IMG/VR virus record: IMGVR_UViG_3300024346_000089
Coordinates: 1-52,634 of that record
Direction: 5' to 3' (one strand)
From: a virus
DNA: 52,634 bases
Made by a program: the position numbers and the translations under genes. A model generated the notes under the pieces. The model had not been told where the DNA came from. It did not search any database and saw nothing but the letters and a program-made list of their open reading frames with translations. Below are positions 7,104 to 48,828 of the stretch, piece after piece (positions within the stretch are counted from its first letter, which is position 1; each line of letters begins with the position of its first letter).

Positions 7104-8252
7104 TTAATTTCCGTCAATATCTTGACCATCGTCGCCAAGTTCCAATTCACGCATTGTGTGAACTTTTGTTTTTGGTCCTATCGGGCTTGCTGCGACCGAA
7201 GCACCAAGCGAGCCCATCAACATTGTTCTAATTAATTGATAAATCGTGTACGACTTTGGGTCCGCAAGATGCTTTCTCCTGAACTCGGCAACATAGGATT
7301 TTGCACGGCGTTTTTTGTGGTCGCCAATCATGTAGTCGTCAATGAAGTAACTCGCTCCATCAAAGCCAAGTTTTGCATACCTGTTTACAATTAAATCTAT
7401 GTCTACCGAAGACCAGTAAAGTCGTTGGGCATCAATGTACGGGAATACCTCAACAAGCCTGTCATAGAACTCTGGCTCTGTTGCAACAACATCACCGATA
7501 CGGCGGATGGCAACTGAGTGCAGTGGAATACCAACGCGACTATTGCTATCAGTTATCGCCGCAACATCGTAGTATGAGCAATACTCCGCATTATGTTCTT
7601 CAGAAATGAACTTAAACACATCGTTTGTTTGCCAGTCGTAAATTACTTTTGCAAACTTTAGCGGTATCCCTTTTTTGTTTTTATAAGGGGTGACGATGTA
7701 GTTTTCGTGCAACTTCTGCACCAGAGAGCGATAACGAATCATTGACTCGTTTGCCCTAACTCCAGTAATAAAAGCAACGCTTCCCTGCTTGCCCTGCATC
7801 GTGTAGTAGTCAACGGATTCTGGCAATGGCTTTGAAGCATCTAGCCCAAAATGTTCAGCCCTGATTGCCCATGATGGCATTGGCCTGATGAGCCGTCCTT
7901 CTCGTTCGCGTTTTTGACTCCACAAAATTGCTGACTGGCGCCGTCCCAAAACCCAAATTTCTGTTCCGTAAGGGAGGCAATACCACTCCATGTCAACCCA
8001 GTCGTAGTTCCTGACGCGCTCAATATATTCAACCGTTCTCGGGCTAACCATTTCTTCGTCACGGAAAATAACTTTTACTGGACCAAGACCGCGCTCTTCA
8101 TGTACTTCTTTTGCAAGATAAAGAACGGCTGTTGAATCTTTACCACCAGAAAACTGAACACACACAGTGTCAAAGGTGTCGTAGACATGGCGAATGCGGG
8201 CACGCGCTGCTTCAACGCAGTCCATGTCAAGGAACAGTCGTTGGCGTGTCAC
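7104..8252 (-). CDS. PAPS reductase-like (adenine nucleotide alpha hydrolase) family protein, IbrA/DndC-like
   Basis: A 382-residue protein with the PP-loop signature SGGKDST at residues 35-41, which binds the ATP or PAPS pyrophosphate. Further family features are VIFRDEEMV (strand two) and FITGVRANES, plus an extended helical C-terminus. Relatives include PAPS reductases, the phosphorothioation enzyme DndC and the phage protein IbrA. It starts with GTG, overlapping the upstream ParB-like stop codon (TAGTG). There is no obvious DndA, DndD or DndE gene in the window, so a complete phosphorothioation pathway is not supported. Modification of DNA or nucleotides, or a regulatory role, remains possible. 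Confidence 0.85.
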   Translation of the reverse strand: MTRQRLFLDMDCVEAARARIRHVYDTFDTVCVQFSGGKDSTAVLYLAKEVHEERGLGPVKVIFRDEEMVSPRTVEYIERVRNYDWVDMEWYCLPYGTEIWVLGRRQSAILWSQKREREGRLIRPMPSWAIRAEHFGLDASKPLPESVDYYTMQGKQGSVAFITGVRANESMIRYRSLVQKLHENYIVTPYKNKKGIPLKFAKVIYDWQTNDVFKFISEEHNAEYCSYYDVAAITDSNSRVGIPLHSVAIRRIGDVVATEPEFYDRLVEVFPYIDAQRLYWSSVDIDLIVNRYAKLGFDGASYFIDDYMIGDHKKRRAKSYVAEFRRKHLADPKSYTIYQLIRTMLMGSLGASVAASPIGPKTKVHTMRELELGDDGQDIDGN

Positions 8253-9388: not shown

Positions 9389-9928
9389 TTAATTACCCTT
9401 TTCTAGTGCACTGAATAGTGGCTCCCAATCTATCTTGGTTAATGCCGAAAGTTGCTCATCGGACCATTTGTATGGAGATTCTCCAAGCCTTGCTAAAACC
9501 ATTTGCTCAAGAACCCATGCGTCACACACATCGTCAGCCGAAGGGCCAGTGAAGTTTATTCCTGATATTGCAAAAACAGAAAACAGGACTTCCTTTTTCC
9601 CAGCATTGCCCTTGCCAGTTGCGAACTTTGCACGGCATGTCGGGGGGACATCAATAATCGGAAATCCATGCTTGACCAGAACAGACTTCACAACTCCACC
9701 CAGTTCCCCAATTGAGTGGGCTCGGCTGAATTTTGAGCCAAATGAATACCCCTCCACCAGAATCGCCGTGGGTCTAGAAGATGATGCAATTTCTAATATT
9801 TTTTCTGAAATCTCAATTAAGCGCGCTGTTCCTCTTTGCTTTGACGCAATTGCCATGTACTCTCCGCCAATGCACACGCCAGTAGATGTAAGGGACAGGT
9901 CAATTCCCATGAATCTTAAATCGCTCAT
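9389..9928 (-). CDS. RuvC-like Holliday junction resolvase
   Basis: A 179-residue RNase H-fold nuclease. Visible catalytic acids are D10 in GIDLSLTSTG, E59 in ILVEGYSFG, and D132/D133/D136 in SADDVCDAW. These match the D-E-D-D arrangement of RuvC-type resolvases that cut branched DNA before packaging. It is the first gene of the leftward block. The ATG lies 51 bp from the terminator-like hairpin at 9979-10016. Only a weak promoter (TTGCCC, then TAGTAG) can be proposed in that gap. Confidence 0.85.
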   Translation of the reverse strand: MSDLRFMGIDLSLTSTGVCIGGEYMAIASKQRGTARLIEISEKILEIASSSRPTAILVEGYSFGSKFSRAHSIGELGGVVKSVLVKHGFPIIDVPPTCRAKFATGKGNAGKKEVLFSVFAISGINFTGPSADDVCDAWVLEQMVLARLGESPYKWSDEQLSALTKIDWEPLFSALEKGN

Positions 9929-9965
9929 ATGGACAGACTACTACGCAAACCCAATAAATACGGGC

Positions 9966-10036
9966 AAAAAATAATAGACGCAAGGACAGGGTAAGTTTCC
10001 CTACCCTGCCCTTGCGCCTATAACGGTCCTAAGGAT
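9966..10036 (-). ncRNA. Candidate leftward small RNA: 17-nt anti-23S-rRNA leader plus terminator hairpin
   Basis: On the minus strand a TATAAA (10048-10043) would place a transcription start near 10036. The next bases (10034-10018) are the exact complement of 17 nt of conserved bacterial 23S rRNA, the helix 69-70 segment CTATAACGGTCCTAAGG, which is also the core of the I-CeuI site. This is followed at once by a 15-position stem with one mismatch (10016-10002 with 9993-9979, 8-nt loop) and then a U-rich tract (9978-9966). The elements are thus ordered as promoter -10, antisense segment, intrinsic terminator, a compact ~70-nt RNA. The -35 is weak (TTCATT, 17-bp spacing). The rRNA match is recalled from the known I-CeuI/23S sequence. 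Function is inference. Confidence 0.45.
9979..10016 (-). terminator. Intrinsic terminator, leftward
   Basis: The stem pairs 9979-9993 with 10002-10016 (CGCAAGG/CCTTGCG, one A-C mismatch, then CAGGGTA/TACCCTG) around an 8-nt loop. On the minus strand it is followed by a tract ending in six U residues. On the plus strand no T-run follows. It would stop leftward transcripts before the RuvC-like gene, either from the adjacent promoter or from read-through of the terminase block. Confidence 0.7.
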
Positions 10037-10136
10037 TACAAGTTTATACCCAATTCAAATCCAGCAATGAAGATTAATTGAGATATGAAAAATATATCTG
10101 TAGTAACATGTCTATCTAATTATCACGGAGGCAATC

Positions 10137-10835
10137 ATGTCTGGAATTACACCCCCATCAGTCATTAACTATGAATGGACTGTCAGAACTGACGACCCTT
10201 CATTCTTGAATGTGTCTTTTCCGTTTCGGGTGAAGATTGAATCAATCTGGTTCACCACTCAACAGAATTATGGCGCAACCAGCGGTCTTTGGGGCACCAC
10301 CGATGGTGGAACTGTAGATATTGAGACAACCGAAAGACAACTGTCTTTGTGTGTGGTAAAGAGCAAGAACTCTAAGACACAGTATTCGCAGTATGACAAC
10401 CCAACAGATTTCATGAATGTTTTTGAAAATATTGTATGGGGCGAAAGTATTGACGAAACCCTGAAACCGACAATGTGGCTAGGAAATCCAGACCTTGCTG
10501 CTGGAAAAATTGGCGCATTTGCCGCATCAAGTGCAGTAGTGGGAAGCCAATTGAGCCTTCGCAGCACCGCTGGAGCACCTATTGACAAGGGATTGGCCTA
10601 CAACAACAGTTGGTCATACGACGAAACTACTTTCAACGAACGGGCTTACCTTGCAGATGTTGCTGTCATGAACACTGACGAATTCCTTCAGATTTTCCCT
10701 TACTCTTCTGATGGTGATTGGACGGGCTACGAAGACGATGCAAAGGTCACAATCTCAATCGCTTACACGGGCATGTCAAATGACGGAGGGGTTTCTGCTT
10801 CAGCAAAACCTTGGACAGCATGGTGGAACGACTAA
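10137..10835 (+). CDS. Hypothetical, probably virion-associated protein
   Basis: A 232-residue soluble protein rich in Ser, Thr, Asp and aromatic residues (many Trp and Tyr), with beta-like segments such as FPFRVKIESIWFT and VTISIAYTGM. There are no Cys pairs, transmembrane helices or catalytic motifs. The composition suits a structural or decoration-type virion protein. A good Shine-Dalgarno (CGGAGG) precedes the ATG. It and the next gene form an isolated rightward pair between two leftward blocks. Confidence 0.6.
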   Translation: MSGITPPSVINYEWTVRTDDPSFLNVSFPFRVKIESIWFTTQQNYGATSGLWGTTDGGTVDIETTERQLSLCVVKSKNSKTQYSQYDNPTDFMNVFENIVWGESIDETLKPTMWLGNPDLAAGKIGAFAASSAVVGSQLSLRSTAGAPIDKGLAYNNSWSYDETTFNERAYLADVAVMNTDEFLQIFPYSSDGDWTGYEDDAKVTISIAYTGMSNDGGVSASAKPWTAWWND

Positions 10836-10844
10836 TATAGCCGA

Positions 10845-11489
10845 ATGGCTAAATTCCCATCAACATTTGCATTTGATACTGGAAACAAATTAAACGACCG
10901 TTTTTTTGACATTCGCTGGCTTTCATACGCACTGGATGCTCAACCACCAAAACGGTGGTACACCTCCAATGAAGAACTGCCCACTGAAGAAATAGTTGAA
11001 TGGGGGCGTGGAGAAGTTGATGCCGAAGGCCGTTTGGTTGTCAAGTATTACCGCGAGGAAGTTTTCGGGCCAGAAAACGAACTGACTAAACTTTGGTTTG
11101 TTCTTCTTGATGGGCGACATGCCCAGCCTGCTCATTTAATTCTTCTCGGGTTTGCAGACGGCAGGTATCCCTGGGGAACTGTTGTAGATGGCTCAGAAGC
11201 ATCAAAGGTTCTTGAAAAGGAATACATGTCCACATGGGCTGGAATGATTAACTGGCGCGCTGGGGACCCAATGATTCAGCAGATTATCACTGCTCCAAAA
11301 TGGAGACGCAAGAGAATCTCGGTCATGATGTTTGGTGTATGTGATGTGGTTAATGCTTGCTATGGATTTAGTCCAGGCAAAATTATTCACGGTGGGGCGA
11401 TTACTACAGCGGACGGTGAGAAACTGAGAGAAATATACCCTGGTGGTAGTGAGCGAATAGATGGGCGAATCGGTTCTGTAGAGAACTAA
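10845..11489 (+). CDS. Hypothetical protein, possible GNAT-like fold
   Basis: A 214-residue protein starting 10 bp after the upstream gene. The C-terminal third (ITAPKWRRKRISVMMFG, then a helix and GGAITTADGEKL) faintly resembles the acetyl-CoA loop and final strand region of GNAT acetyltransferases (a basic R-x-x-R-x-x segment before a helix), but the similarity is not decisive. Its 3' end overlaps the convergent HNH gene by 4 bp. A virion role is equally possible. Confidence 0.5.
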   Translation: MAKFPSTFAFDTGNKLNDRFFDIRWLSYALDAQPPKRWYTSNEELPTEEIVEWGRGEVDAEGRLVVKYYREEVFGPENELTKLWFVLLDGRHAQPAHLILLGFADGRYPWGTVVDGSEASKVLEKEYMSTWAGMINWRAGDPMIQQIITAPKWRRKRISVMMFGVCDVVNACYGFSPGKIIHGGAITTADGEKLREIYPGGSERIDGRIGSVEN

Positions 11490-11791
11490 CGCTCCCAGCC
11501 ATGCTTGGCTAAACCCAAATCAAACGCGAGTTGTGGATAATTGCCAATCCTGTTGTGACAGGGCCTGCATACCGCAAGCAGGTTTTCTTCATCAAGTATT
11601 GAACCGCCCTGTGAACGGCGTACTAACTCGTGTATGTCAACAGAGCGATTCTGATTAAATAATGTTTTCTCGTCATGTTTCGCAAAAACTTTGCAAGCCT
11701 GACAGTAAGGATATTTTTCAAGCAAAGCCTTAACCAGTGGTCGGCGAAGTTCATACTCCGCTTCTTTCTTTTTGCTTCGCTTCCTAATCAC
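11486..11791 (-). CDS. HNH endonuclease
   Basis: A 101-residue protein with a full HNH motif and zinc ligands: C30-x2-C33, D52-I-H54-E as the first H, N70 in EENLLAVC, C75-x2-C78-H79-N. The GTG start overlaps the upstream stop (TAGTG). Phage HNH proteins near terminase genes often nick DNA during packaging at cos sites. Here it lies at the far end of the terminase operon, so a packaging role is plausible; a free-standing homing nuclease is the alternative. Confidence 0.85.
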   Translation of the reverse strand: MIRKRSKKKEAEYELRRPLVKALLEKYPYCQACKVFAKHDEKTLFNQNRSVDIHELVRRSQGGSILDEENLLAVCRPCHNRIGNYPQLAFDLGLAKHGWER

Positions 11792-22599: not shown

Positions 22600-25500
22600 A
22601 TGACGGGTAAATCACTTCGTCTTACACGCATGCTTGTAAGCAAGAAGTTTGCACCGCCAAAATCAGCAGACGAACGCGCTCTTGAATTCCTTGCATCCAA
22701 AAAAGAGATTGTTTCAAAATCTTTTGACGCCGAACTTTCAGTTAAAGCGCTAGGTAAAAATACTGGCAAGAAGCCGCCATCAGCCGATAACAAAGAAAAA
22801 CGCAAGAAGGGCAAAGGGCCAAATAAAAGATTTGGTCTTGCGGTTTTTGACCCTAATGCAAAAAAGAAAACAGGGCAGATTTTCATTCCTTGGATTGCAC
22901 AGTGGGGACGGACTGGAAGTGACGAGTACCCAAACTTTGGTTGGATAGACCCCATTAAGGAACTAAAGCCAAACCAAACAAATGCCCGAATATTTCAGGC
23001 CAGTGAGAAAAAGAAAAACGGAGTCAGCGTCACATACTCAGATGTTGTGCGCAATCCACGGACTGGCGAGTTTGACACAAAGTCTCTCGGACGAACGATT
23101 GGTCAGTTGGTCCCTGGCGGAGAGATTGCAACAAGAGCGGCTTCTGCCCTTGGTCTTTGGCAGGACTCTGCTGGAAAGTTGCGTTGCCCTCCTGGCGTTC
23201 CTGCCGCCAACCAATTCACTGACTCATCTGGCTCAAACTGCTTTGACATCACAGAAGGAATGGCGAGCCGACTTCTAAGGTCAGCAATAAATAGCAACCT
23301 TTCCTTAATGGATGACATGTCGTTGCTTAACGAAGCAATTTCCTTTGAACGAGTAGTTCCTATAGATGGAAGAACAACAAGATATCCAGAAAAACGATAC
23401 GACAGTTTGTACGACATCGTCCGTGGTCTTGCGAGTTCAAAACCACGCGCAGAATACAGCGATGGAAAACGCACCGTTTGGCTGCCGACTGACGATACGG
23501 ACCTAATTGACGAAGCGGGGGTAGAGGGCTTCAAGCCAACTGGTCGCGTTGATGCACCTGCATCCACTAGACCAATCATAAAAGTTGATGCAGTCCCAGA
23601 GGAGCCAAAGTCGGCAGACGACCTAATTGGTCCTGACTCATTGCCAATTTCACGAATTGATGCCAAGTCTTTTGCCGAGGAAGTTCGCGCTCGCGTCATT
23701 GATGCACACCCAGACATTACGCCAGAAGAACTTGACAGAATAGTCATGCTTGCCGAACAGAAAGCAAGAATGACAGATGCTTTAAACGGGCGAATTGATG
23801 TTGCTCTTCAATTAATGAAAGACCTTGGTATAGATGTTGACCCAAGTAGCCCGCAAAGCGTCAGCGCTGGATTCATGCGGGCAATGGATGAACTTAGCAA
23901 GTCTGGGTGGGATATCAACTTTGAAAACACTCTCTGGACGGATGTTGACAGAACGCTTTCACGAGAAGAACAAGTTGCACAACATCACGCAAATGTGTTG
24001 AACATGATTGTTCAAAACATGGTCAAAGACCCAGAAGGAACACTTGAGGCGCGAGATGCTTCGGTAGTTAAAAGACTGTGGGCTGGCCTAAGTAAAAAGA
24101 AAAAAGAAGAAGCAGTTCGCAATGCAACAATGGCGTACCTCAATGGAGATGCTCCAGAAACACTAAAAACAGACCTGGAAAAAGCACTTCATCGCAACAT
24201 GGCTCACAGAATGAACAACTACCTTGCTGCTGAGCATGGATTTATGTTGGGCATGCTCGCAGAACACAAGATGAATCCAGGGAAAGCGGAATTGCTTAAG
24301 CGTGTAGGCGTGATGGACCCAATGGACCCACGCAACGAGGGTCTTGAGGCAATGGTTATCCCAGACGCTGATGGACAAATATCCATGCTGTGGAACCCAC
24401 TTGGAATGATTCTTGCCGACAATCCACCAGCGCCAAGGAATCCAAAAGCATGGCGTCTATACGGAACCAGTGGCAGCGGTCTTGAAGTATCAAAAATTGC
24501 AGAAGTAAAGAAGGCTGTTGATTCAGCAACAAAGATGGCAATGCTCAACGACATGTTGGGTGGTGATGTTTTTGATGCGATAAAAACTCACGGCTATATG
24601 GGCGATATCGCCAAGAAGCACGGAGGCTCAATCGGTCATGCAATGTTTGTCTTCCAGCATGAATTGACGCATGCCCAGCAATACGCGATGGTCATGTACA
24701 TGATTTCTCATGACAAAAAAGGTCGTCGCATAACCACTCTCTCTAATGTTGAACTTGCAAAACTTGCAGATGACATAATCACGGGGAATTTCCCTGGCTT
24801 GACGATGGAAATGCTTTTCGCTGATGAAAAAGCAATGGCAGCCGTTCATGGAAAAGTTGGCGTGGTCATGGACTCAATGGTCAGAGAGGGGATGTCTGGT
24901 ATCTACCCAAGGATGCACCTTGAGACAATGCACATCCTCAACAAGATAATGGGTCTTAAAGATGATGACCGACCAGGTTTTATCTCTGACCTTGAAGACA
25001 GATTTGCAACCCTTCGCGAGCGGGCTGGATTTGATAAAGACCTAACGCCAGATGAACAGATGGAACTTAAAATCCTTAATCACGCAATCGGCACAATACG
25101 CGGAATTGATGAATTTGATGACGAGCAATTACAAAATTCAGTTAGGACCCAGCGTGCTCTGATGTTTGCAGAGTCGGCAGCAGAGTTGAACGCCGCACGC
25201 GCAATGGGGATAATTGACCCGACTGATGAAAAAGTAACTGCCGCACTTGCTCACCTTGATGCCCCAATGGACAAGGTTGCAAAAGAAGTTGTAGCCGTAA
25301 AAGAATCAAAGAAGCGCAAATGGCTTGAGCGTTTGGTTGGCGCTGTTGAAATGTATGACGAGTTAAAAAACTCAGAGTGGTCACTTGAGCAAGCGTCTTC
25401 TGGGGACGAGCCACTAACAATAAATCTTGTTCGTAGGAAGCGCTGGCGCGAAGGCTCCGAGATGGTCGTATCTGAATCAGTAGCAGAATTGTTTACAGTG

Positions 25501-44648: not shown

Positions 44649-45977
44649 ATGTCAGAAGACAAGGCAAGACTCAGCGAACTGCAAAGTGCACTTCGCGCAA
44701 AGATGGCAGACAATAAGACCATCGCAGACTCGTTCAAAATTGAAGACGGCAATGTCGTTGTTTCCAGCGCACAGAAGACCGCATTTGACAAGAACATGCA
44801 AGACATCAAGGAAATCAAGAGCCTCATCTCTGGCCTTGAGCAAATGAGCGAAGTTGACTCATGGGGCTCACAGGCAAGTGGTGAATCAGTTGCAGCAGCA
44901 GTAGCAGCAGGTTCGGCATTTTCACACAGCCTCCGCAGCGAGACAATCGGCGAAGCATTCTTGAACTCATCCGAATTCAAGTCGCTCGCAAATGGTCGCA
45001 ACGGTGCAAACATGCCATCACCTTTCCAGTACGGCGGAAGCCTTGCTGGTGTTAGCGGTTTTGGTGTTAAGGATGCATACACGGCAATGCCAAGCGGTTT
45101 CCCAACTCAGTTCGGTACCGTGCAGCGTGACCCAATCGTCATTCAACCAAAGCGCACCAAGCGTGTTCGCGATTTGTTCCCAACTCGCACCACGACTGCT
45201 GCAATCATTGAATACTTCCGTATGACTGGTTTCACCAACAACGCGGCAGCAGTTGCAGAGCGCAACGCAGGCAACACTGCATTCGCAGCGAAGCCACAAT
45301 CCAGCATGTCGTTTGAGGGTGTACAGACTTCGGTCAAGACCCTTGCACACTGGGAAGCAGCACACCGCAATGTTCTCGCTGATGAGCCACAACTGCGCTC
45401 AATCATTGACAACGAGTTGATGTACGGCCTCCGCTTGCAGGAAGATGCACAAATCCTCAATGGTGACGGAACTGGCGAAAACCTTCTTGGTGTTCTTCAG
45501 ACTCCTGGAATCCAGACCTACAACTGGTCAGATGGTGCCTACTCGGCAACTGCTGGTCTCAGCGACTCAAAGGCTGACGCAATCCGTCGTGCCGCAACCC
45601 TTTCGTTCTTGGCTTACTACGAGCCATCGGGCGTCGTGTTGCACCCGAACGACTGGGAAGACCTTGAGTTGACCAAGGACGGCAATGGCCAGTACCTCAT
45701 CGCAGTTTCGGTTGCAATGGGTGGTGAGCCAAAGGTATGGCGTTTGCCAGTCGTAGAGACTCCAGCAATGACAGAAGGCGAAGCACTTGTTGGTTCGTTC
45801 GGTCAGGGCGCACAGTTGTACGACCGTGAGCAGGCTTCAATTCGCATCAGCGAACAGCATGCTGACTTCTTCATCCGCAACGCAATTGTGATTCTTGCAG
45901 AACAGCGCCTCGCGTTGGCTGTAAAGCGTCCAGAGTCGTTCGTGAAGGTGTCGTTTGACGCAGCACCAAGCGCATAA
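44649..45977 (+). CDS. Major capsid protein (HK97 fold)
   Basis: A 442-residue protein. Residues 1-~95 are a charged helical delta domain, the usual HK97-type scaffold, and S94-L-R-S97 sits where the prohead protease would be expected to cut. The mature part shows family patterns: FRMTGFTNNAAAVAE, a WEAAHRNVLADEPQLRSIIDNELMYGLRLQEDAQILNGDGTG segment (E-loop/spine helix), then LGVLQTPGIQT, and FIRNAIVILAEQRLALAVKRPESFV at the C-terminus. It assembles the icosahedral head. Its own leader and a strong terminator directly after it suggest a separately controlled, highly expressed unit. Confidence 0.94.
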   Translation: MSEDKARLSELQSALRAKMADNKTIADSFKIEDGNVVVSSAQKTAFDKNMQDIKEIKSLISGLEQMSEVDSWGSQASGESVAAAVAAGSAFSHSLRSETIGEAFLNSSEFKSLANGRNGANMPSPFQYGGSLAGVSGFGVKDAYTAMPSGFPTQFGTVQRDPIVIQPKRTKRVRDLFPTRTTTAAIIEYFRMTGFTNNAAAVAERNAGNTAFAAKPQSSMSFEGVQTSVKTLAHWEAAHRNVLADEPQLRSIIDNELMYGLRLQEDAQILNGDGTGENLLGVLQTPGIQTYNWSDGAYSATAGLSDSKADAIRRAATLSFLAYYEPSGVVLHPNDWEDLELTKDGNGQYLIAVSVAMGGEPKVWRLPVVETPAMTEGEALVGSFGQGAQLYDREQASIRISEQHADFFIRNAIVILAEQRLALAVKRPESFVKVSFDAAPSA

Positions 45978-48613: not shown

Positions 48614-48828
48614 TTAAACTGCTTCCAATCATGCTGATTGCAATTTCAGCCTGCGGATATGACGGCAAGTATCGCTATTCATGCCAAGACCCTGATAATT
48701 GGGGAACAAAGGAATGTGAGCCACCAATATGCGAAGTAGATGGAAACTGCACAGAAACTCTGCTTGGATGGGACCCAACAGAAACAACCGTGGAAACGAT
48801 TCCAGCAGAGGAGACAGTAGCGCCATGA
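48592..48828 (+). CDS. Small lipoprotein
   Basis: A 78-residue protein with a lipoprotein signal: basic MHKSTRLIK, hydrophobic LLPIMLIAI and lipobox SAC (C21). The mature part has four more cysteines and an acidic Thr/Glu-rich end. It would be anchored to the outer face of the membrane, and could act like a spanin-type lysis protein or in superinfection exclusion. It overlaps the following gene by 4 bp (ATGA). Confidence 0.65.
   Translation: MHKSTRLIKLLPIMLIAISACGYDGKYRYSCQDPDNWGTKECEPPICEVDGNCTETLLGWDPTETTVETIPAEETVAP

Follow-up and report, generated by a model that had tools for sequence, protein, structure and literature searches.

A candidate phage RNA element complementary to the 30S-facing strip of 23S rRNA

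Why would a phage carry an exact 17-nt complement of 23S rRNA helices 69 and 70, directly followed by a long hairpin? The question is raised by the window, i.e., the whole stretch of 52,634 nucleotides of viral DNA analysed here, in which an earlier note had pointed to such a match. The explanation that we favour, with a probability of roughly 0.6, is that positions 9964-10034 of the minus strand specify an antisense RNA element of a convergent class: unrelated phages would have convergently evolved RNAs against the bridge-forming, 30S-facing strip of the 23S rRNA, with which free 50S subunits would be captured or blocked in the course of infection. Complementarity, the selection that acts on it, its strand, the architecture of the element, its phage-specificity and its recurrence were computed from the sequences and are described below.

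The plus strand of the window contains CTATAACGGTCCTAAGG, the exact 23S rRNA sequence that runs from helix 69 into helix 70 (Table 1). We take it to be nucleotides 1914-1930 of the E. coli molecule, numbered by our own count, covering the loop and 3' strand of helix 69 and entering helix 70. This is the only such site in the window even with up to three mismatches allowed (mean in shuffled sequence, 0.02), and comparison of the window with the Salmonella 23S gene gave 17 nt as the longest match and 13 nt as the runner-up. The identity ends after the 17-mer, so that the element is unlike a fragment of an rRNA gene, which would continue on both sides. The complementarity that had been noticed is confirmed, and the phenomenon proved larger than first described.

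Table 1. Features at and around the element in the window
Feature	Position	Strand	Remarks
Antisense segment CCUUAGGACCGUUAUAG	10018..10034	-	17 nt against 23S rRNA CUAUAACGGUCCUAAGG, Salmonella 1955-1971
Hairpin adjoining the antisense segment on its 3' side	10021-9974	-	22 bp, 4-nt loop
U-tract TATTTTTTGC, intrinsic-terminator-like	9964..9973	-	After the hairpin; absent from some relatives
TATAAA	10043..10048	-	Promoter of the earlier note; unconserved
RuvC-like Holliday junction resolvase gene	9389..9928	-	Downstream of the element; PHROG 159, E 6e-34
1.43-kb segment between HNH gene and element	10051..11484	+ (genes)	Absent at this place in L116, L003, L072, L089
Two genes of the 1.43-kb segment	10137-10835, 10845-11489	+	Without PHROG match
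HNH endonuclease gene	11486..11791	-	PHROG 15522

The hairpin, previously given as 15 positions, is longer than that and very stable (z = -5.95, equalled in 0 of 200 shuffles); in relatives it contains a covarying 18-bp core. Past the hairpin the minus strand reads TATTTTTT, and on this strand the window has a GC-rich hairpin followed by a U-tract, as expected of an intrinsic terminator. The U-tract that had been proposed together with the hairpin is thus real in the window, and is missing in some relatives. Rfam covariance models at the gathering score gave no match in the window, and only tRNA and tmRNA in its relatives.

A dedicated promoter, for which the TATAAA had been taken, receives no support: no sigma-70 site is called there, and close relatives read TAGTAAACT at this position, which is the stop codon context of the HNH gene. 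In these relatives the element lies in an operon just behind that stop codon, from which the antisense segment is about 13 nt away. The window's TATAAA sits at the junction of the 1.43-kb segment, and the element is flanked here by the minus-strand RuvC-like gene and by two plus-strand genes, with the minus-strand HNH gene beyond. Many of the families described below have the position expected of a 3'-UTR-derived small RNA; in the window, 1.43 kb lie between the element and the HNH gene. The RuvC-like protein matches those of isolated phages at less than 60% identity only. Elsewhere in the window, positions 7104-8252 hold a phosphoadenosine phosphosulfate reductase-like gene (PHROG 2302, E 9e-76).

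The exact 17-mer was found in 117 stretches of viral contigs, as opposed to 4 for a control made of the reversed 17-mer, and the earlier opinion that such a match is very unlikely to arise by chance is upheld. A hairpin abuts the 17-mer in nearly all 117 stretches, and the layout of the window, 17-mer with an abutting long hairpin, is common to more than 80. Among 85k bacterial and archaeal genomes (257 Gb) only 4 matches occur when those with flanking bases as in 23S are left out, all of them inside coding ORFs; this near-absence indicates that the element belongs to phages. Contamination with rRNA was considered and discarded, real 23S sequence being present among the viral loci in L092 and L252 only, both of which were set aside. 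Some phage-labelled records (for example OR844775, PQ800148, MZ092003 and KM209255) contain long stretches of rRNA genes, probably by contamination or mis-assembly.

Within the window's family, 19 distinct sequences could be compared. Stem cells are paired in 99% of cases and 9 of the 18 stem pairs are changed on both sides, with 41 such cells against 12.5 in shuffled data and 0 of 500 shuffles as high, under a null that, like the binomial one used below, ignores phylogeny. Antisense positions 2-17 are invariant with a single exception. Conservation in related phages, which had been proposed as a check, is thus observed in the form of a constant 17-mer and a hairpin varying by compensatory change. 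The opposite case, in which the 17-mer is lost while the hairpin is kept, was sought among RuvC-linked loci, a sample drawn without any pattern. Those that bear the hairpin either keep the antisense segment or shift its register: the L345 group retains the hairpin, has lost CGUUAUAG, and is complementary, through UCGCUACCUGAGGACC, to the next stretch of 23S (UCGCUACCU). Complementarity is down to 13 nt in L395 and 11 nt in L399, and the weakest members, L350, L364 and L407, do not outscore shuffled leaders. Mismatches occur in some lineages (TTACAG; GCTATAG; GGACAATTATAG), and many RuvC-linked loci are without the element, which is therefore dispensable.

The strand and the mode of substitution both point to an RNA that pairs. 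By crude ORF calling in 27 intergenic families, 20 have both neighbours running in the antisense direction, 1 has both in the sense direction, and 6 are mixed. Of the same 27 families, 10 have a terminator immediately 3' of the element on the antisense strand, and 2 have one on the sense strand. The arrangement of neighbouring genes and terminators leads us to infer that the antisense strand is the one transcribed. Complementarity is conserved and is kept through substitutions, as expected of an antisense RNA. Counted by eye as types, not as independent events, 13 substitutions keep the pairing with 23S via G-U and 5 break it, with a binomial P of 1e-7 to 3e-4 depending on the assumed transition bias. 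The substitutions come from capsid 3' UTRs, RuvC-linked loci and BLAST matches, samples for which no exact pattern served as the criterion of choice. An argument from wobble direction in a degenerate R/Y pattern was abandoned as circular, and only mismatch-tolerant or pattern-free sets were used.

Searches with seeds overlapping the 17-mer retrieved further families, whose various matches overlap one another and together fall within one strip of about 55 nt in 23S rRNA (E. coli ~1906-1960). The antisense pieces are 16-42 nt long and often form a hairpin loop or stand beside a terminator. Because many of these families were found by pattern, the exact-match count is partly circular, and its independent part consists of the pattern-free samples and of pairing that extends past the seed. 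One very large family lies behind the major capsid gene, in its 3' UTR, in freshwater phages whose capsid protein is 44% identical to that of Bacillus phage KLEB27-3. The order there is stop codon, CCUUAGGGUCGUUAUAGUUAC with its anti-helix-69 part in a hairpin loop, and terminator, and the core is kept in 71 of 71 such 3' UTRs in a pattern-free sample. Two further genes, one for an unrelated capsid protein (L161) and one that is tail-tube-like (L191), are followed by the same arrangement; their names were assigned by eye from the sequences. Pairing reaches beyond the searched seed in L060 (39 nt) and L149 (30 nt), and in L066 and L001, where 23-25 nt are paired and UCGCUA is added to the seed; in L443 and L451 it covers about 40 nt, interrupted by a single gap or mismatch. 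In the Vibrio phages PWH3a-P1, R16F, P018-4 and 10AMN the paired stretch is about 24 nt long and includes two G-U changes; in Staphylococcus Sextaecvirus SpP it measures 17 nt (CCGTAACTATAACGGTC). Other Staphylococcus phages, together with one recorded as an Arcanobacterium phage, pair over 26 nt against helices 70-71, with three G-U changes. A second hairpin loop, UCGCUAC, antisense to the adjoining 23S GUAGCGA, occurs in the Vibrio phages and in L023, L180, L159 and L418.

A 44-nt query spanning helices 69-71 found intergenic antisense pieces in Jilinvirus phages that infect E. coli, Salmonella or Enterobacter, in Guernseyvirinae with Hafnia or Pantoea as host, and in the Pseudomonas phages phiPMW and SYP, where the hairpin TACAATT-ACCCGACAAGG-AATTGTA precedes a terminator. 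In HeidiAbel_Bas97, a Jilinvirus-like phage of E. coli, the element occupies 24561-24577 of the record. Isolated phages of E. coli, Vibrio, Staphylococcus and Pseudomonas are among the carriers. The phages of all these hosts carry an antisense to the helix-71 part, mostly before a terminator. E-values of these matches are individually weak (0.8-9), and their weight comes from the fact that most are intergenic and beside a terminator. Control 44-mers from the sarcin-ricin loop and from another conserved 23S segment gave no intergenic phage matches, only rRNA records and matches inside genes. When 16S rRNA was searched likewise, no comparable set of short intergenic matches appeared, except in two Streptomyces phages, Stella (45557-45596) and Omar (48645-48702), which contain 40-58 nt that are 81-95% identical to 16S rRNA. 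Weak matches in Halocynthia and Aeromonas phages fell inside annotated genes and were left uncounted. Queries with the whole 23S rRNA are insensitive, about 20 nt being needed, and for this reason there may be further antisense targets.

Other phages carry rRNA-like pieces in the sense orientation. The tRNA arrays of L441, L449, L454, L471, L474, L445 and L465, and less clearly those of L463 and L001, contain the 23S piece GGTCCTAAGGTAGCGA in sense orientation, running in the same direction as the tRNAs, of which there are up to 27, in two cases with a tmRNA. The piece is often found in the shared context GAATGC..GGGATTACA..AACGGTCCTAAGGTAGCGA..hairpin..AGCGAC and belongs to no Rfam family; it is possibly a structured RNA that mimics helices 69-70. 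Around locus position 1201 of L411-L415 there are 30-35 nt of the 23S GTPase-associated centre, in sense orientation and with 88-94% identity. The carriers, Cronobacter GAP32, Aeromonas 4_4572, Pseudomonas pf16 and Astolliot, and Erwinia SNUABM_12, are phages of many genera; their pieces are co-directional with the genes, several stand beside tRNAs, and all are unannotated and without Rfam match.

What could an antisense RNA of this kind do? In E. coli the strip at ~1906-1960 forms helices 69-71 and makes bridges B2a and B3 with helix 44 of 16S rRNA. It faces the 30S subunit, and since it is exposed on the free 50S subunit and buried in the 70S ribosome, the partner of the RNA is most likely the helix 69-71 strip of free 50S subunits. 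The element would be the RNA of an operon's intergenic region or transcript end, with its first 17 nt antisense to helices 69-70 and its 3' part acting as stabilising hairpin and terminator; a 50S subunit paired with it would be unable to dock onto the 30S. Transcription of the window copy, its binding to 50S and the consequence of binding are what we infer from the computed features. That the function of the element is pairing with 23S rRNA appears quite probable, and that pairing keeps 50S from joining 30S, whether globally or locally, we rate at somewhat under even odds. In a local variant the RNA would capture a 50S subunit at the end of its own transcript; in a trans variant it would be released as a 3'-UTR small RNA and act as a wider brake on translation. 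Capsid-gene position and nearness to stop codons favour the local role, the layout of antisense plus terminator resembles that of 3'-UTR sRNAs, and we have no preference between the two. Growth of E. coli is inhibited by a PNA oligomer directed at helix 69 (PMC7038079). The m3-pseudouridine 1915 of mature ribosomes would weaken one pair, which counts against pairing.

Other explanations have to be weighed against capture or blocking of free 50S. The element may have a positive role in cis, where the transcript end or intergenic segment would pair with a 50S subunit just released at the nearby upstream stop codon and thereby assist re-initiation at the next gene, recruit 50S for further rounds, or shield the RNA end from exonucleases, a function not unlike that of plant-virus 3' translation elements that bind 60S. 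This is unlikely in our judgement. In its favour, the antisense starts 3-20 nt behind a stop codon in many families, and one mRNA requires just one 50S subunit; moreover, jumbo phages and an unrelated phage have the antisense downstream of their major capsid genes, a place at which global inhibition would be to the phage's own disadvantage. However, compact phage genomes put any 3'-UTR element near a stop codon, several copies follow genes of no expected abundance (HNH, integrase), and a 50S subunit paired at helix 69 is barred from the 30S until released. Less probable still is destruction of rRNA or ribosome precursors, with RNase III cutting the duplex, or a stall of assembly through blocked folding of domain IV, by which nucleotides would be freed or host ribosomes reduced. 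Most duplexes, at 16-22 nt, are short for RNase III, and phages generally need host ribosomes; against this, the longest duplexes, which are nearly perfect and reach ~40 nt in L443 and L451, would be RNase III substrates, and helices 69-71 fold late, which speaks for an assembly stall. The earlier note had proposed pairing during ribosome assembly or with degraded rRNA, and either may occur.

We see very little room for the idea that the sense strand matters and yields a helix 69/70 mimic, a decoy for ribosome-targeting toxins or factors; a plus-strand mimic of helix 69 had been raised in the earlier note. Throughout the class to which the window belongs, neighbouring genes and terminators are co-directional with the antisense strand and run against the sense strand; the piece does not include the 5' half of the helix 69 stem and so cannot fold as that helix, and the substitutions that preserve G-U pairs fit the antisense only. 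What speaks for a mimic is found in other phages, namely the separate class of sense helix 69/70 pieces co-directional with tRNAs in tRNA arrays, and the sense GTPase-centre pieces near tRNAs. An equally slight chance is left to a DNA site (an I-CeuI-like homing target or a recombination site), a captured scrap of an rRNA gene, or a terminator with a fortuitous match, even though the I-CeuI site has the 17-mer as its core and an HNH gene adjoins the element in the window's family. Most families are without HNH and other 23S regions are absent, and site and scrap alike are at odds with orientation bias, hairpin covariation, G-U-tolerant substitutions and shifting registers; the reversed-sequence control scan excludes a chance match. 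A homing-endonuclease target of the I-CeuI type was rejected in view of the strong strand bias and RNA covariation.

Capture or blocking of 50S by an antisense RNA has only partial parallels. Known phage sRNAs, such as c4 of P1/P7, 24B_1 of phi24B, the anti-sRNAs of EHEC and the prophage svsR, are likewise short and act by base-pairing, but their targets are mRNAs or sRNAs, whereas the element described here is directed at rRNA; in a 2025 review of phage-derived sRNAs the term 'rRNA' occurs nowhere in the text (PMC12197685). A search of the open-access literature, with subscription journals and preprints mostly outside its scope, found no description of such RNAs. To our knowledge, no naturally occurring RNA antisense to the ribosome's intersubunit bridges is known. 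Bacterial 3'-UTR-derived sRNAs of the MicL/CpxQ type have their pairing segment just 5' of the intrinsic terminator at the transcript end, a similar layout, with mRNA as the target in place of universal rRNA. Helix 69 was reportedly targeted with an antisense PNA by Kulik et al. in 2017 (cited in PMC7038079); the target is the same, but PNA is synthetic, and the phage element is a natural RNA that appears to have been selected repeatedly. Among plant viruses, 3' cap-independent translation elements (BTE, TCV TSS) are 3'-UTR RNAs that touch the ribosome, BTE by pairing with rRNA; these are eukaryotic, concern 18S/60S, and have no sequence relation to the phage element. The hibernation and anti-association proteins RsfS, which acts through uL14, and YfiA/HPF keep subunits apart or idle, as the element would, though it is RNA and not protein.

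The occurrence of the element in many unrelated phages suggests a hitherto undescribed viral hold on host ribosomes, and the sense pieces within phage tRNA arrays suggest a wider use of rRNA-like RNAs by phages. If our reading is correct, the element would be expected in dozens of phages, including E. coli phages such as HeidiAbel_Bas97, phages would control host ribosomes by RNA pairing with the most conserved surface of rRNA, and helices 69-71 would mark a point of natural weakness in bacterial ribosomes.
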